From a virus, in IMG/VR virus record IMGVR_UViG_3300048042_000021, positions 1-33,846 of that record: a stretch of DNA of 33,846 bases. The stretch is one strand, 5' to 3'. The notes under the pieces are model-generated. The model was not told the DNA's origin and did no database searches. It worked only from the letters and a program-made list of their open reading frames with translations. Below are positions 8,901 to 29,967 of the stretch, one piece after another. A program made the translations under genes and the position numbers. How positions within the stretch are numbered: position 1 is the first letter of the stretch; each line of letters opens with the position of its first letter.

Positions 8901-9298
8901 TCATATACGGTTTGATTAGTGACAATCTGTTGGATTTTCAAAAATCCAACAGATGTTAAACAACGCTGTGGTTGATAATTTAACATTTGAGCTAGTCTAA
9001 ATACACTTTCACGACGCTGTGCCGTATCTAAGAAATTTTCATGAGTATTCAAATCCATTCTTAGTGCTAAACTGGTACCAACATAACTCAAAAGTTCAAT
9101 GATAGAAACAAATTCACTACTCTCTATCCAGTCGTTAAAATCCTCGGGGTATGAAATCTGTATGTATGTTATTAACGCCGTACGTATAGTATTGAAATCA
9201 TATGCATTAAAATTAACGGTTGTAAATGCAGTATATAGAATTTGCCAATCTTCCGCACAAAAAAGTTGTTTTTGTCTTTGCTGAGCCGTTACAGTCAT
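5918..9298 (-). CDS. Baseplate wedge protein, gp6-like (J-like family)
   Basis: 1126 aa. In T4, gp6 forms the inner ring of the baseplate and joins wedges around the hub. The N-terminal 120 residues carry the family pattern: a region around [15 protein letters not shown], then [20 protein letters not shown] and [19 protein letters not shown], equivalent to the conserved 'LLAY...E.FL.TA..R..V...A...GY' stretch of gp6 and Mu J-like proteins. The length is well above T4 gp6 (660 aa); the extra part is Asn/Thr/Ser-rich. The start ATG at 9298 forms an ATGA overlap with the stop of the upstream GIY-YIG gene, and the GAGGG ribosome site lies in that gene's last codons. Position directly after gp25 and before a giant structural gene agrees with the T4 order 25-6-7. 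Family assignment is by pattern recognition, fairly secure; function of the extra length is unknown. Confidence 0.82.
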
Positions 9299-10203
9299 AT
9301 TATGCCCTCTTTAGTTTTATTTCTTTTAGTTTCTGAAATTTTACGTTTTATTTCATCTGACATAGGAGGTCTCTTTTTGGCTGCAATAGACAATTTTTCT
9401 CTATGTTCATTTGACATATTCATAGCACGTTCTGACATCTTTTTTCGAGTTTCTTCTGTTATTGGATCACGTTTAATAATTATTCCTTGTTCTCGTAAAT
9501 TATCATAAAAATTGCTAGTTGCATCAGATAATTTTTGCCTAGTTTCTCCTGATACTATTTTTCCTTTTAGAGCATTAGATATTTTTTTACGAGATTCTTC
9601 TGATAAAGGATGCTCATTGAATCTTTTTATTTGTGATTCAGACATTTTATTTCTAGACTCTTCAGAGAAGGCCCATCCATTGGCATGTCTGTTCTGTTGA
9701 GCTAAAGTCATTCTTGCTCGAACTTCTGGAGATCGTTTCTGACCTTTTGGTCGACGTAATTGTGCTTCAGAATATCGCTTTCGTGTTTCTTCAGATATGG
9801 GTGGTCGATTTTGTTGTCCTTTAGATATATTTTTTCTATATTCATCTGATCTAGGTGGTCGATTTCTAACAGCTTCGGCGATTCTTCTTTTAGTTTCTTC
9901 GGTATGTTTTAATCCAGTTGCGCCGTCACCACCATCTAATTTGTTTAATAAAATTCCTGCATCACTTCTTTTACCCCACCAACGTATCATTCTTCGTTCT
10001 AATGCTAACGCTCCAATTTCAGTTAAACCTGATTCTAATATAACAATATATTGTTTATCTTTTGGTATAGGAACATTATTATGTTTATCACTGAACATTC
10101 TTTTTCCTTTACCTTTACCAATATAATAAGGAGTACCTGCTTTAGCAGTTATTGAATCTTTATTTCTGATATATGCATATACATAAAATTCATTAATTAT
10201 CAT
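9295..10203 (-). CDS. GIY-YIG homing endonuclease with many NUMOD3-type repeats, inserted in the baseplate operon
   Basis: 302 aa. The GIY-YIG nuclease module is at residues 7-75: YVYAYIRN, then [11 protein letters not shown] (Tyr27, Gly29, Arg35) and a downstream Glu in ALALERRMI. From about residue 95 the protein is a run of about nine short repeats of the type 'S-E-E-T/S-R-K-K-I/M-S', the NUMOD3 DNA-binding pattern of phage homing endonucleases. It lies between gp25 and gp6, genes that are normally neighbours, with 9 nt to the gp25 stop and a 4-nt ATGA overlap with the gp6 start. An AAGG 7 nt before the ATG serves as ribosome site. There is no intron or intein around it, so this is a free-standing element, of the kind T4 calls seg genes. 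Its target is probably the homologous gp25-gp6 junction in related phages; that is inference. Confidence 0.88.
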
Positions 10204-22430: not shown

Positions 22431-23510
22431 TTAAACGGGTTTCAATTTACATTTATCAAAATGATATCTATACATATTATTAGATCCACCAATTTTACCA
22501 CAGTGTGGACATTCTATTTTTGATTTTTTAACACCTTTCATGCCTGCAGACATATTCTTTTTAATTTCATCTGTTACAATTCTACCTTTACCTCCTTTTG
22601 ATATATTATCTTTCCATTGCTGTTTTTCTTCTTCGGTCATTTTATAATGGCATGGTTTACCATACATTCCATTTTCTTCACCTTTGTGGGCCATTTTAGA
22701 TCTAACTATATCCATTTCTTCTTTGGTTAACTTATCAAATGGTTTTTTACCATATCTCGGATTATTCTCACCAGACATACGCAAAGATATTTGTTCTATT
22801 AACTCTTTATATTCTTCTGACGTTAAATTATCAAATGGTTTTTTACCATATCTCGGAGATAGGTTTCCGATTCTTCCGTACATAGGATTATTTTCTCCTC
22901 TAAAATAGTCATCTAAATATTGCTGATATTCTTCTGGTGTTTTATTTCGTATAGTCGAATTATTATTACCAAATCGATATTTTATTTTATATTGTTCTTT
23001 TTCTTCGGGTGTCATACCATGTTCCCAACAAAAATTTTCATTCGGGTATATGTCTTTTATTAATGCAAATATTCTAACTGCTTCTTCGTCTATAGTCTCA
23101 TGTGGCGGTAAAAATTTAATTGGTGGTATTACCTTATTATAATATTTTCTAATCGAATCAGATAATTTAACTCGTAATGCATCTTCTACTATTAATTTTT
23201 CAACTTCTGCATAGGTTAGAGATGCCTTAGTAGCATGTAATGATTCAATAAAAAATTGAAATCTATCTTTTCCAAATTCTTTAATAAGTTTGTTTATTTC
23301 ATCTGATGAACTTGTGTATTTTTTCCAGTTAGATTCTTTCGTCTTCCATGCTCTATTTTTTCTTCCAGTAATAGCTTTACTAGTTTTTGTAAAAAATTGT
23401 TTTTTACCTATATATTCCCTATTAGTAACCGTGTCAATTATCCTATATACAAATCCAAACCAATTATTTATATTAAAATCGTTAGGGTATATCCAATGAC
23501 CATTATCCAT
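22431..23510 (-). CDS. GIY-YIG homing endonuclease with C-terminal zinc finger
   Basis: 359 aa. The nuclease module is at the N-terminus: FGFVYRIID (18-26) and REYIGKKQFF (31-40). The middle holds three copies of a 'G-E-N-N/G-P/G-x-Y-G-K-K-P-F-D-x-L-T-x-E-E' repeat, a NUMOD3-type DNA-binding pattern. The C-terminus is a zinc finger with Cys334, Cys337, His350 and Cys354 (spacing C-x2-C-x12-H-x3-C), the same spacing as in the HNH protein at 29116-29967. The gene is convergent with gp46, 6 nt apart. It has its own late promoter (23541-23548) and an AGGAATTATT ribosome site, so it should be expressed late. It is free-standing; the target is unknown. Confidence 0.88.
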   Translation of the reverse strand: MDNGHWIYPNDFNINNWFGFVYRIIDTVTNREYIGKKQFFTKTSKAITGRKNRAWKTKESNWKKYTSSSDEINKLIKEFGKDRFQFFIESLHATKASLTYAEVEKLIVEDALRVKLSDSIRKYYNKVIPPIKFLPPHETIDEEAVRIFALIKDIYPNENFCWEHGMTPEEKEQYKIKYRFGNNNSTIRNKTPEEYQQYLDDYFRGENNPMYGRIGNLSPRYGKKPFDNLTSEEYKELIEQISLRMSGENNPRYGKKPFDKLTKEEMDIVRSKMAHKGEENGMYGKPCHYKMTEEEKQQWKDNISKGGKGRIVTDEIKKNMSAGMKGVKKSKIECPHCGKIGGSNNMYRYHFDKCKLKPV

Positions 23511-24467: not shown

Positions 24468-24761
24468 ATGACTCAAGTAAGAAAAACATTTCCACAAGAA
24501 GCTATTCCAACTGTAACTAAGTCAACACCAAGAACTGGTAAATCATCATTTCAGTCTAGAAAAATTCCTGAATTTCATCAAGGTACCCCTGCCTCAAAAT
24601 GTGTGTCTTTAAAAGATAAATTTGACAAATACATTACAGAACATCATAGTAATTTAACAGAAGACGATCGAAAGCTATTGTGGCAACGAACGTCAGCTCA
24701 ACTAATAGAAAATCCCCAAACTGAATTCATCACCATCATCGAAGAAATCATCCAATTTTAA
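24468..24761 (+). CDS. Small hypothetical protein
   Basis: 97 aa, not recognised. The first 45 residues are basic and rich in Ser, Thr, Pro and Lys and probably disordered; the rest, from KDKFDKYITEHH on, forms predicted helices with NLTEDDRKLLWQRTSAQLIE. No cysteine pair or membrane segment. It starts 18 nt after the 267-aa gene, with AAAGG 10 nt before the ATG, so it belongs to the same operon. The 13-mer AAAGGTAAATATT in its leader recurs upstream of the gene at 31154. A short basic, partly disordered protein next to a structured RNA region may bind nucleic acid, which is inference only. Confidence 0.7.
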   Translation: MTQVRKTFPQEAIPTVTKSTPRTGKSSFQSRKIPEFHQGTPASKCVSLKDKFDKYITEHHSNLTEDDRKLLWQRTSAQLIENPQTEFITIIEEIIQF

Positions 24762-24764
24762 TTC

Positions 24765-24814
24765 CTTACAGAAACCATCATCATCCCTTACAGAAACCAT
24801 CATCATCCCTTACA
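24765..24814 (+). repeat. Tandem 22-bp repeat just after the operon
   Basis: Two perfect 22-bp copies (24765-24786 and 24787-24808), each beginning CTTACAGAAACC and ending in CATCATCATCC, plus six bases of a third. The unit is not a multiple of three and lies after the stop codon. Confidence 0.9.
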
Positions 24815-25186
24815 TACTGGTACTGAAATAGTAGTAGCGAATGCGTAATTCTACTGATGCTAGGATTGATAAGATCACACTCATCTAGGGATTCTAATTC
24901 TGTAAAGCCCTAACCAGAAAAATCAGATGAAAGGATTGCAGCATCTTGTATATTGTCTGCAATGCATAGGATCTAGTAATCGAAATGTAGACCTATGTAG
25001 TGTGCCCGTAATGGGCATGACCGGGTATAGAGGTTAATTTCTAAAAGATCGCTTGTGACGAGTGGGTATTTAGGGACTCTGAATACGCCACCTGATAACT
25101 GGAAAAAGGTACCCCGCCAGTTAGTTTTAGGGTGATAATTTCGATGGCTAAAGAGTGAATCAGAAGATTACACATTTTCCAATAAA

Positions 25187-25214
25187 ATAGTATTTCCTTA
25201 AACGGGAATACTAT
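25187..25214. other. 11-bp hairpin, possible terminator for leftward transcripts
   Basis: Stem ATAGTATTTCC (25187-25197) with GGGAATACTAT (25204-25214), loop TTAAAC, one T-G pair on the plus strand. On the minus strand the stem is followed by TTTTATT, so it could end leftward transcripts about 340 nt beyond the tape measure stop. Confidence 0.4.
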
Positions 25215-25282
25215 GACGAGATATGATCAGAATATCACGCCTTTTATAGACGATTTCTGCTACATAAAGATTGAAAACGTAT

Positions 25283-25327
25283 TTAACGTAAATTTATTTA
25301 GAAAATTAACGTAAAGTTATTTAGAAA
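25283..25327 (+). repeat. Direct repeat, two 22-bp copies
   Basis: Copies at 25283-25304 and 25306-25327, separated by one base, share TTAACGTAAA and TTATTTAGAAA and differ at a single base (T or G at the eleventh position). Confidence 0.9.
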
Positions 25328-25334
25328 GAAAATA

Positions 25335-25385
25335 ACAAAGCAATTCATTGAGATGAGCTTGCGATTCGAAAATGAATTGCTTTGT
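25335..25385. repeat. 15-bp perfect inverted repeat (hairpin)
   Basis: ACAAAGCAATTCATT (25335-25349) and AATGAATTGCTTTGT (25371-25385) are exact reverse complements, loop 21 nt. No T-run follows on either strand, so it is not a standard terminator. Confidence 0.9.
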
Positions 25386-25391
25386 AGATGA

Positions 25392-25423
25392 ACATAAACG
25401 GAGTTTATGTTCTCCGTTTATGT
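25392..25423. repeat. 12-bp hairpin with an alternative fold
   Basis: ACATAAACGGAG (25392-25403) pairs with CTCCGTTTATGT (25412-25423). The first arm can instead pair its ACATAAA with TTTATGT at 25404-25410, a 7-bp hairpin with loop CGGAG. The two folds exclude each other. Confidence 0.85.
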
Positions 25424-25553
25424 ATAATCATAATAATAAATTAAGGATACTTCTGACTAAAATTCATTGACTATATTAGGGTTAATCAACTATGCGTCGA
25501 TGGCAGTTTGATAATTGCAAACAAAAACTAAATATTATCTGCGAATAAATTGA

Positions 25554-28500
25554 TTAATAAACACGTCCACTCTGCTTCTTCACTGCATTGACTATATCAC
25601 TTGTAGAACTATTTGTAGTATGACCTAGAGCTTCGAGCTTATAATTTATCATCTGAAGTAATTCTATCATTGACGCATTTGAACTTCTTTGATTATCATA
25701 AAAATCAATTGTTATCTTTTGTAAGTCACTTGGACTCAACAGCTTAGCACCGCCTTTATTAGTTGCAACTGACGGGTTAGCTAGTTCTTGCGCATTTGCA
25801 GCTAAATCTCCCACACTTTTAGCTAGTTCTTCAATCATTGACGATGTGGTAATTTTTCCAGAAAATAAAGTGTCTTGTTTAGAAGTATATAATAAATTTG
25901 ATAGATTGGTTAAGGTATCATTTACTGACGCATCTATTTTGGCTGAGTTCAATGAACTAATCGCACTATTAAATGCAGTACTAAAAGTAGACAATGATGG
26001 CGTTATTTGATTTAATTTATCAGCTATATTAACTGACCCTAAACTATCACCTAATTCTGTAATTTTACTCGCGATAGTCGTTTTACCACTAAACATCCCA
26101 GTCTTAATATCAGTGTATAAAATACCAGCTAAGTTTGTGATTGTTTTAATAATTGCATCGGTATTGATATTAGCACTATTAGCACTTATTAATGAATCCG
26201 TAACAGTTTTAAATGCAGTACTAAACATTGTTAATGCTGGGGTTACTTTAGTTAACGGATCAGTAAGGGTTTCGAATTTTTTAAGTTGATTAACTGAATC
26301 ATCACCCTCTACCTTAGGAGTCTCTACATTTGGTTTTGGTGGTTGTTGACGTTGTTCGTCCTCAGGTGAGGTTTCGCCCAATAAACCACCAAGACCTTTG
26401 ACCATCTTACCTATTGCTGTATGTTCACGGAAATTGTGTACTGCACCTAATACAGCATCAGGTAAGATCTTATTGCCAACAGCACTGATTCCTTCACCTA
26501 TAAATTTGCCTGCTATGACAGCTAATCCTGCTTCTCCAGCAACCTTAGCAACTGTTCCGAGGCCGCCAACCTTGCTAAGCAATCCACCTGCTTTACTTGC
26601 TACACTTGCGGCTTTCTTTTCAGCTTCTGCTATTGCTTTACTTGCTGCTTTCTTTTCAGCTTCTGCTATTGCTTTACTTGCTGCTTTCTTTTCGGCTGCA
26701 CCTTCGACACCTGGCATACTGAAAGGTCTTGGAGATTCTGGACTGCTAAATGGGTTTAGAGAACCTGTAGACTTAATTGGCCTTGACGTTGATTGTGTAT
26801 CTTTTAAAAAGTCTTTAATCCCTTGTGGACGCAATCCCTTAAGAACCACACCACCAGTTAATTTATTTGCTACTGCTAATACTGCGGTTGATACTATTGC
26901 GGTTGTAGCAACTGATTTTAAATTTTCTTGAGTTAGGTTAGATTCTGATCCTGTTTTACCATACATTGCATCTGGATCTTGTTTACGAGTTTTTAAACCA
27001 AATGATATAAGTAACTCATCTATAGCATCTCCTAATGTAGTAAACAAATTAGCCAATGAATCAATTGGATGCGCAAGAGTTGTTAGTATATCTGAGAAAG
27101 CAACTGATACCTTAATAGCACCGTCTGCTAATTTTCCAAGAGCAGGTAGTGCAGGATTTAAGCTCTCTATTAAAAATCGATCAAATGAATTTTTTAAAGT
27201 ATTCTCTGCATCTATAGCTTTGTTTTGTGTATTTCGTAATTTAATAGCATCTTCATTTGCATCAGATGCCATTTTTGCACGTTCTCTTGCTTCAAGTTGC
27301 TCTCTAGTTAATCGTTTACCAGCTTCTTCATCACCTCTAGCAAGTCGTTTATTAACTTCTTCTTGAATTCTAGCTCCCGTTTCGTTTACATTCTGGGTAT
27401 CTTGCATAAATTTTATAGCTTTTCTAGCGGCATCACCAGCTATACCTTGTATCATCGCTTGCGAATGTAAACTTGCTGCGTATTCTTTAGCTTGTGGTGA
27501 ATTAGTTAGTTTACCTATACGTTCTTGATCAGCTTCAACTAGATCTGCAGCGTTAGCAGCGTTAGATTTCAAATCTATTGACAATTGGTCAAATGCCGGA
27601 GACAACCCATCTACACGAGTCATTAACAGTTGAAGACCACTATCTAATTTAGCTATGCCTGTACCCGCATATATACCAGTGAGAATTTTTTGTGCGTCGT
27701 CGGCAGAATCACCTAATGCACTTAAACTCTTTACATTCCGCCTAATAGCATCTTGCTCATTGGCAGATAAATTAGATATGGCTACGTTCATATCTAAATC
27801 CTTAGCTCTATCTTTTGCCTCCTTTTCTAAAGTTTTTCTATTTTTTCCAGTAATCGAAGATATCATATTCAATTCTTGAATATATTGTGCGGTGCCATCG
27901 GTTAGTTGTTTAGTAGTTTTACCTGATAGACCACCAGTTACCCTTAACATATCTGTAAATTCAAGTATAGAATCAATTGCATCCTGATTGGTTAATTGGA
28001 GAGCCCCGGTCTGTTCGTTTAATAATTTAAATGATTTACCTAGTCTGGTAACTTTATCAGTTCCTAAAAACGCTATATCTGCGCTATACTCTGTAAAAGA
28101 AGATACTAAATTATCCAATGATATTCCGAGGTCAGATGCTGTTTGCGTCATTCCTGCCAGACCATCAGAGAACCGAACACCTGAATCAAATAGTTTATAA
28201 TATTCGTTATTCAATTTCGTGACAATTTGATATGTTTCAAATACCCCGCCTGCTAATAACAATAACGGACCTGCTACGGTAAGTATACCTCCTAATAGAT
28301 CTTCAGATGCTGCACCTAATTTAGATAAACTGGCGGCCGCCGTACCTGAATGTTTAGCTAACATTCCAATTATACCAACGTCTCCGATATCTGATATTGC
28401 GCCATGAAGGCCTTTTAATGCACCACGTAAACTACCGTCTACTTTATCGAATCCATTTTTTACACCGAGGTTTAAGTCTTTAAATGCATCAGTATCGTTT

Positions 28501-29115: not shown

Positions 29116-29967
29116 TTAGTGATTAATTTCTTCACAAACAATGTTTGATTTTTGTTTGAATTTACAATTATCAAAATGCCATTGGATCATAGCACCACCT
29201 TTACCAATTTTATCACAATGATGACATACATATTCTTGTTGAGATGGGTGTGTTCCATTTGCTACTCGTTCTAATGCGTGTTTTCTAGCTCTTTCAGAGC
29301 CACCATTTTCTTTTAATAAATGATGCGTTCTATTTGCAACTTTCTCATTTGCTAATTGCCTTAGATGCTCAATGTTTTCTTTATTTTGAGATGAATGCCT
29401 ACCTTCTGCTAATAGCTTTAAATTTCTTTCTTTAGACTTCTCACTACCTCCATTTTGTTTTAATGCATGAAATGTACCATTTTTTATTAATTCATGTACC
29501 GGATTTTTATCACCTTGTAAATTATGATCACCTCTAGCAACTCTTTTATTTTGTGCTTGTATCATTTTTTCAATAACTACCGGATTTTGAGATGGATGTC
29601 TACCTTCTGCTAGTAATTTTAATACTCTTTCTCTAGACTTCTCACTGCCACCATTTTGTTTTAATAAGTTATGAGTTCCGTCTGTTGATCTTTTTAAATT
29701 ACTCAATGTTGCTAATCTAGAAATATCTTCTGGTGATTTATTCATTCTAAATGCAATTAAGACGCATGCATACCAATCCATTTGTTCAAAATGAATATCG
29801 TAATGTTCTTGTATAGTAATAGCTTCTAAATTAATTGGATCATTATTTGAATGATTCCCATCTATGTGATGAATTTCATAAGTACGACCTGTTTCATCTA
29901 TAGGTATTTTACCTATATGATTCTCATATATTTTACGATGATTAGTAGTTCTACAATGATTGCACAT
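29116..29967 (-). CDS. HNH homing endonuclease with repeats and C-terminal zinc finger
   Basis: 283 aa. The HNH core is at 30-60: RTYEIHHIDGNHSNN (His33, His34, Asn41/42), DPINLEAIT and EHYDIHF, preceded by a CNHC pair at 2-5. Residues about 95-245 hold three copies of a repeat built around NGGSEKSRERVLKLLAEGR and HPSQN, interspersed with RVARGDHNLQ-like units, likely DNA-binding. The C-terminal zinc finger has Cys248, Cys251, His264, Cys268 with the same spacing as the GIY-YIG protein at 22431-23510. It lies between the tail-chaperone frames and the tape measure gene, normally adjacent. No ribosome site precedes the ATG, and the predicted transcript start is within a base of it, so translation may be leaderless. 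It ends 4 nt from the convergent membrane-protein gene. Confidence 0.87.
   Translation of the reverse strand: MCNHCRTTNHRKIYENHIGKIPIDETGRTYEIHHIDGNHSNNDPINLEAITIQEHYDIHFEQMDWYACVLIAFRMNKSPEDISRLATLSNLKRSTDGTHNLLKQNGGSEKSRERVLKLLAEGRHPSQNPVVIEKMIQAQNKRVARGDHNLQGDKNPVHELIKNGTFHALKQNGGSEKSKERNLKLLAEGRHSSQNKENIEHLRQLANEKVANRTHHLLKENGGSERARKHALERVANGTHPSQQEYVCHHCDKIGKGGAMIQWHFDNCKFKQKSNIVCEEINH

Follow-up and report, generated by a model that had tools for sequence, protein, structure and literature searches.

A predicted large pseudoknotted non-coding RNA gene at a fixed locus of jumbo phages

Only a few large ornate RNAs of phages are known, and they lack an explanation; the question considered here is whether a long gene-free stretch of a jumbo phage encodes one of them. 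The window, by which we mean the whole stretch of DNA analysed (33,846 nucleotides), is a 33.8-kb jumbo-phage fragment. It carries T4-like baseplate genes, a late sigma factor and SbcC, the last being about 45% identical to SbcC of phages Phosso, PA5oct and Atu_ph07. No tRNA was found in the window. A sequence-only reading had described positions 24762-25553 as free of genes, and this is confirmed: the ORF listing contains no open reading frame of 50 or more amino acids there. The flanking genes are convergent, a 97-aa gene ending at 24761 on the plus strand and a 1050-aa gene ending at 25554 on the minus strand.

The same reading presented the interval as 790 nt packed with hairpins. Folding agrees with it, as the plus strand of 24762-25553 reaches -193.8 kcal/mol, compared with -164.2 +/- 7.2 kcal/mol in 20 dinucleotide shuffles (z -4.1). 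The extent was overstated, since the conserved RNA spans about 24813-25233 plus 3' hairpins, and some of the helices of the single-sequence fold differ from those supported by evolution. The pseudoknot described below is absent from that fold. Two inverted repeats in the stretch, of 15 bp and 12 bp, are perfect. The reverse strand folds similarly well (z -4.9), so the strand is not given by folding energy alone; counts of G-U versus A-C pairs were not decisive, because the own fold of each strand favours itself. Placement of the RNA on the plus strand is an inference, resting on promoters of the multi-copy group described below and on a consensus energy that is slightly better for this strand.

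Relatives of the window locus were collected by searches with SbcC and gp26 and with one DNA pattern. The resulting 19 IMG/VR stretches, taken together with the window, represent 14 distinct sequences, the window included. Gene order is the same in all 14: SbcC (+), a gene of about 97 aa (+), the RNA, a gene of about 94 aa (-) and gp26 (-); tblastn did not detect the 97-aa gene in three of them. In the window alone the 94-aa gene and gp26 lie about 5 kb from the RNA, because the 1050-aa gene and an HNH gene intervene. Records of this family include phages of 452.8 and 518.6 kb. One further stretch, L004, was found by a match to the 97-aa protein and rejected as a relative, and blastn of the window RNA against phage and plasmid collections gave no match.

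A structure was derived from the 13 relatives only, and the window forms 62 of its 78 predicted pairs. The corresponding figure was 27-36 with slid partners and averaged 32 in 2000 shuffles (sd 4), which never exceeded 46. Sixteen predicted pairs are broken in the window, and 12 are altered on both sides with respect to the relatives' commonest pair and still paired. This left-out test is free of the upward bias of the full alignment, except through the alignment itself. In the MAFFT alignment of all 14 sequences (A11), 89.9% of cells are paired versus 37-43% after sliding, two-sided changes are present in 52 of 91 pairs (shuffle mean 31.2), and the covariation score is 0.399 versus 0.194 +/- 0.009 in shuffles. 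These percentages lean upward because 13 of the 14 rows also supplied the structure, and the count of further pair types gave no excess over shuffles. The consensus fold of the family has an energy of -120 kcal/mol, with z of -12 against 30 gap-preserving column shuffles. Compensating changes in related phages, which had been proposed as a check on the idea of a large structured phage RNA, possibly of a new class, are present, and covariation in 14 sequences supports that idea; transcription is inferred only. The parts of the RNA and its flanks are collected in Table 1.

Table 1. Predicted parts of the RNA and adjoining features (positions in the window)
Feature	Position	Strand	Basis
97-aa gene, immediate upstream neighbour, conserved	24468-24761	+	ORF list, relatives' gene order
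Structured RNA core, CAUAC to CAGAAU	24813-25233	+	alignment with 13 same-locus relatives, covarying structure
Closing helix P1, 5' side (CATAC), partner 25211-25215	24813-24817	+	helix 1, 87% paired
Helix P2, 5' side (UGGU), partner 24913-24916 (ACCA)	24818-24821	+	relatives' structure, pair statistics
Hairpin with most conserved letters, UGAUGCUAGGAU...AUCACACUCAUCU (relatives GUGAAAGGAUAAC...GUUAUCACACUCAC)	24855-24886	+	helices 4, 5
Hairpin UUGCAG/CUGCAA, two compensatory pairs in the window	24936-24962	+	helix 8
Pseudoknot strand 1 (GGGUA, after ACC)	25023-25027	+	helix 12, 100% paired
Helix 25028-25033 / 25076-25081	25028-25081	+	helix 13, 98.8% paired
Helix CACCU/GGGUG around pseudoknotted hairpin	25089-25134	+	helices 14, 15
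Pseudoknotted hairpin AACUGG/CCAGUU, inside the preceding	25097-25102 / 25117-25122	+	helices 14, 15
Pseudoknot strand 2 (UACCC, before CGCC), complements 25023-25027	25110-25114	+	script, pair statistics
3' hairpin AUAGUAUUUCC/GGGAAUACUAU (relatives CUCCCCGCAAGGGGAG)	25187-25214	+	window fold, helix 18
Closing helix P1, 3' side (CTATG)	25211-25215	+	alignment, pair statistics
15-bp hairpin, inner sequence GAGAUGAGCUUGCGA	25335-25385	+	inverted repeat; same place in several relatives
12-bp hairpin, likely 3' end	25392-25423	+	inverted repeat
Decayed HNH homing endonuclease 3' end, outside RNA	25492-25560	+	DNA similarity

Four of the five P1 pairs are standard in the window, and the lower part of the 3' hairpin at 25187-25214 competes with P1. 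P2 contains one compensatory pair (CG to UA). In the relatives, the loop of the helix at 25028-25081 is shorter than in the window. The 12-bp hairpin is not followed by a U-tract and is not a canonical terminator. Taken together, the RNA covers the core and probably also the 3' hairpins to about 25425, which corresponds to a size of roughly 420-620 nt.

Such a stretch could also be no RNA at all and instead be the relic of a mobile element, either an intron or a homing endonuclease, whose hairpins formed by chance. An HNH remnant does overlap its 3' end, where 25492-25560 (+) shares 75% DNA identity over 67 nt (29116-29182) with the 3' end of the HNH gene at 29116-29967 (-), and homing endonucleases are encoded nearby. 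The remnant lies outside the conserved RNA, however, the relatives carry the RNA at the same intergenic locus, and both two-sided base changes and the pseudoknot contradict this explanation, which we consider barely tenable. No HNH remnant was seen at the corresponding place in the relatives.

Several other traces of rearrangement were recorded in this region. Inverted copies of the HNH 3' end flank the 1050-aa gene together with a 108-aa gene. The relatives' counterpart of the 1050-aa gene is located beyond gp26 on the opposite strand, so this segment seems to have been moved or inverted. Homing-endonuclease-like genes number three in 33.8 kb (22431-23510, 29116-29967 and 9295-10203), their types being GIY-YIG SegE type, HNH and one phrog_314-like. 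Tandem duplications of 22 nt are present at both edges of the RNA (24761-24804 and 25283-25327). Contig L003, nearly identical to the window, shows small indels and has a single copy of the 5'-edge 22-nt repeat versus two in the window.

A gene-free gap of 680-840 nt is found at the same locus beside gp26 in the enterobacterial and Xanthomonas jumbo phages GAP32, CBB, Munch, XaC1 and PBECO4. Similarity of the gaps between genera is 69-75% over up to about 500 nt, and reaches 93% between CBB and GAP32. This group encodes a structurally similar RNA of about 550 nt there and, as paralogs, in as many as four other places, which brings the number to 3-5 copies per genome. Searches of whole records found five copies in CBB, GAP32, Munch and XaC1, four in PBECO4 and three in RaK2; with the CBB sequence as query, 40 phage records were matched, most of them at four or five places. 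All five CBB copies are located within gene-free gaps of 661-786 nt and are spaced by 62-84 kb. Flanking genes match across genera at no fewer than four loci, and the copy positions are therefore old. In a tree the five XaC1 copies cluster (99/97), which suggests homogenisation within the XaC1 genome; most branches are weak.

Covariation is present in this group as well. Among 25 copies, 90.7% of cells are paired versus 33-47% after sliding, two-sided changes occur in 62 of 100 pairs, and the covariation score of 0.424 (shuffled 0.174 +/- 0.006) was reached by none of 500 shuffles. The pairing leans upward because the structure comes from the same alignment, a bias which the slid and shuffled controls only partly remove. 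As far as comparison of sequences can establish it, these data demonstrate selection on RNA structure over long divergence and at fixed loci. Two contigs of bacterial assemblies, from Silvania and Enterobacteriaceae RIT714, carry the RNA according to two models of different domains; four of six bacterial-assembly contig matches were judged to be due to chance. In the records of 7t3, PHA46, Kaldavass and SD-1/2/6/15, the RNA is covered by annotated hypothetical proteins. The alignments revealed no conserved reading frame, and these proteins are thus probably spurious.

Most aligned copies of the multi-copy family are preceded by a TGAAACG- or TGGGACA-like box and TATAAT, the boxes of the XaC1 copies being weaker. 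The motif was also found upstream of 39 of 48 IMG/VR matches; in some of the 48 the upstream sequence was too short. The CBB genome paper describes a promoter class that combines TGAAACG with a TATA -10 region and lies near DNA-synthesis genes; a word search of the paper found no non-coding RNA (PMC5259590). A regular expression located 35 TGAAACG/TATAAT sites in the CBB genome (NC_041878), all on the plus strand, which explains the common orientation of the copies. For the window family no recognisable or comparable promoter was seen, and its RNA may therefore arise by processing of a longer transcript.

The dispersal of about five copies over conserved loci, at the spacing seen in CBB and with a middle-type promoter, might indicate an RNA working in cis as transcript or primer of a replication origin, with several origins per large genome. 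T4 origins with middle promoters and ColE1 RNA II are precedents. This model lost support because the GC skew of CBB keeps its sign at the copies, a weak test, since skew in CBB is tied to the coding strand. The common orientation of the copies had been taken as a clue to a DNA function and was dropped, all 35 promoters of the class being one-stranded. Further, the window family has one copy, and covariation reflects selection on RNA folding, not on DNA melting. We regard an origin function as improbable. Another role in cis, that of a long regulatory leader or attenuator of the downstream gene, agrees with four of the five CBB copies, which are upstream of a gene on the same strand. It fails at the locus common to both groups, because the next gene there is on the other strand, and we consider it very unlikely.

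The pseudoknot is common to both groups. By eye, an upstream ACC-GNNNN was seen to be complementary to the loop that precedes CGC in a hairpin containing GAA, and a script found the exact 5-bp complement in 37 of 38 automatic matches. The remaining match, PBE_93, had been read in a wrong register, and its next GACCGUUGC pairs with GCAAC. The first expression failed on the window owing to its long loop, and a second one recovered it (Table 1). Altogether, the pseudoknot is fully Watson-Crick in 39 of 39 sequences checked, with ten pair combinations. When the last pair was left free on both sides, the pattern matched 48 IMG/VR stretches in 17 contigs, and the free pair was Watson-Crick in every one of them (25 C-G, 21 U-A and 2 A-U), the A-U type being new with respect to the earlier sequences. 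These matches are not independent events, as many come from the same phages or near relatives. Since the motif was recognised by eye only once the alignments existed, the evidence is post hoc, except for the free pair.

The two groups share the locus, the pseudoknot and the letters ACCG, GAA and CGC. Cross-searches between the window and the multi-copy family were not significant, either with covariance models, which represent two short sub-domains of low information, or with sequence HMMs. Homology of the two RNAs has not been shown; judging from locus, size and pseudoknot, we hold it to be probable. Strongly folding gene-free gaps also exist near the same locus in PA5oct (L031:10518-11180, z -9.1) and Phosso (L026:3760-4773) and are possibly further divergent members. 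PA5oct, Phosso and Atu_ph07 were not counted as members, being without a sequence, model or pseudoknot match. For the window itself, comparison of sequences leaves very little doubt that 24813-25233, probably to about 25425, is the gene of a large pseudoknotted ncRNA, which occupies a constant place between SbcC/gp46 and gp26 in one clade of jumbo phages.

Does this RNA belong to a known family? Rfam 15 gave no match at gathering score in the window, in stretches L006 and L007 or in nine named-phage regions. Permissive searches (E 10 for the window and CBB, E 5 for L007) returned nothing credible, with ROOL, GOLLD and OLE absent. The sequence-only reading, which had seen no proof of homology to GOLLD or ROOL, is upheld in this respect by the covariance-model search. 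Group I and group II introns were rejected, as no Rfam intron model matches and the RNA is intergenic in the members examined. Large size, nested helices, a pseudoknot and invariant unpaired letters would suit a ribozyme or other catalytic RNA, for example RNase P-like or self-processing. Against it, no Rfam ribozyme or intron model matches and the site lies between genes, not within one, so that we see little reason to expect catalysis.

ROOL is likewise borne by phages and prophages, measures about 600-660 nt and has several pseudoknots and an unknown function (PMC12286853). It differs in that its Rfam model fails to match, and in that the sister group of the new RNA has up to five paralogs per genome. 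GOLLD is also a large phage RNA with extensive covarying structure, but its model fails to match and it is often longer than 800 nt. Both are often found near tRNA islands, whereas the 33.8-kb window is without tRNA. OLE, an ornate RNA of about 600 nt, forms homo-oligomers; it occurs mostly in Gram-positive extremophiles, not phages, and its model fails to match. The most abundant transcript of the virulent phage ICP1 is an ncRNA of about 800 nt in a gene-free stretch of 1 kb (PMC7567579), to which the new RNA shows no blastn similarity, and neither the pseudoknot motif nor a match to model R2 was found in it. In ICP1 L224:8098-9108 (-), seemingly the published ncRNA, ACGACCGTTATG and TGCCGTGAATAGTGCGGCAA recall multi-copy motifs, without statistical support.

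The locus, gene-free and with covarying structure in several lineages, meets the sequence-based criterion for the general kind of large structured phage ncRNA. Its RNA is a new family within this known kind, in which the occupation of several loci per genome is unusual. No published description of it was found, with partial literature coverage and without preprints. There is about an even chance that it represents an undescribed class without descent from a known one, that jumbo phages have retained it from the time when several of their genera diverged, with about five ancient loci in each genome of one clade, and that its function differs from all those established or suggested for ROOL, GOLLD and OLE.

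With regard to that function, several copies per genome and an own middle-type promoter in one group may also point to an RNA that is made at middle time and acts on a host factor as decoy or inhibitor, the factor being a nuclease, a defence sensor or a ribosome factor. A folded RNA is a typical form of decoy. Decoys usually track their host target, however, and here phages of different hosts have the pseudoknot core in common and no target is known; a decoy is therefore possible and rather unlikely. Tentatively, and with slightly less than even confidence, we propose instead an abundant trans-acting architectural RNA. This model was chosen because of the analogy with ROOL, GOLLD and OLE, ROOL being as abundant as 16S rRNA in one strain and both ROOL and GOLLD forming RNA-only cages (PMC12286853), and with the abundant ncRNA of ICP1 (PMC7567579); transcription, multimerisation, stability and timing are inferred. 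The RNA would fold to a fixed tertiary core around the pseudoknot and act in trans, stable and abundant, in the middle (DNA-replication) phase of infection, probably as a multimer or RNP scaffold. In multi-copy phages, several genes with own promoters would raise the dose of the RNA. By its motif the window family is single-copy in a 216-kb record and even in the 452.8-kb record, so dosage is not a general feature.

Each copy lies within about 0.7 kb that is blank in annotations or filled with doubtful small ORFs. Close counterparts are present in cultured, published phages of E. coli, Salmonella, Klebsiella, Cronobacter, Pectobacterium, Erwinia, Serratia and Xanthomonas, and expression, structure and knock-out phenotype of the RNA are therefore testable at once.
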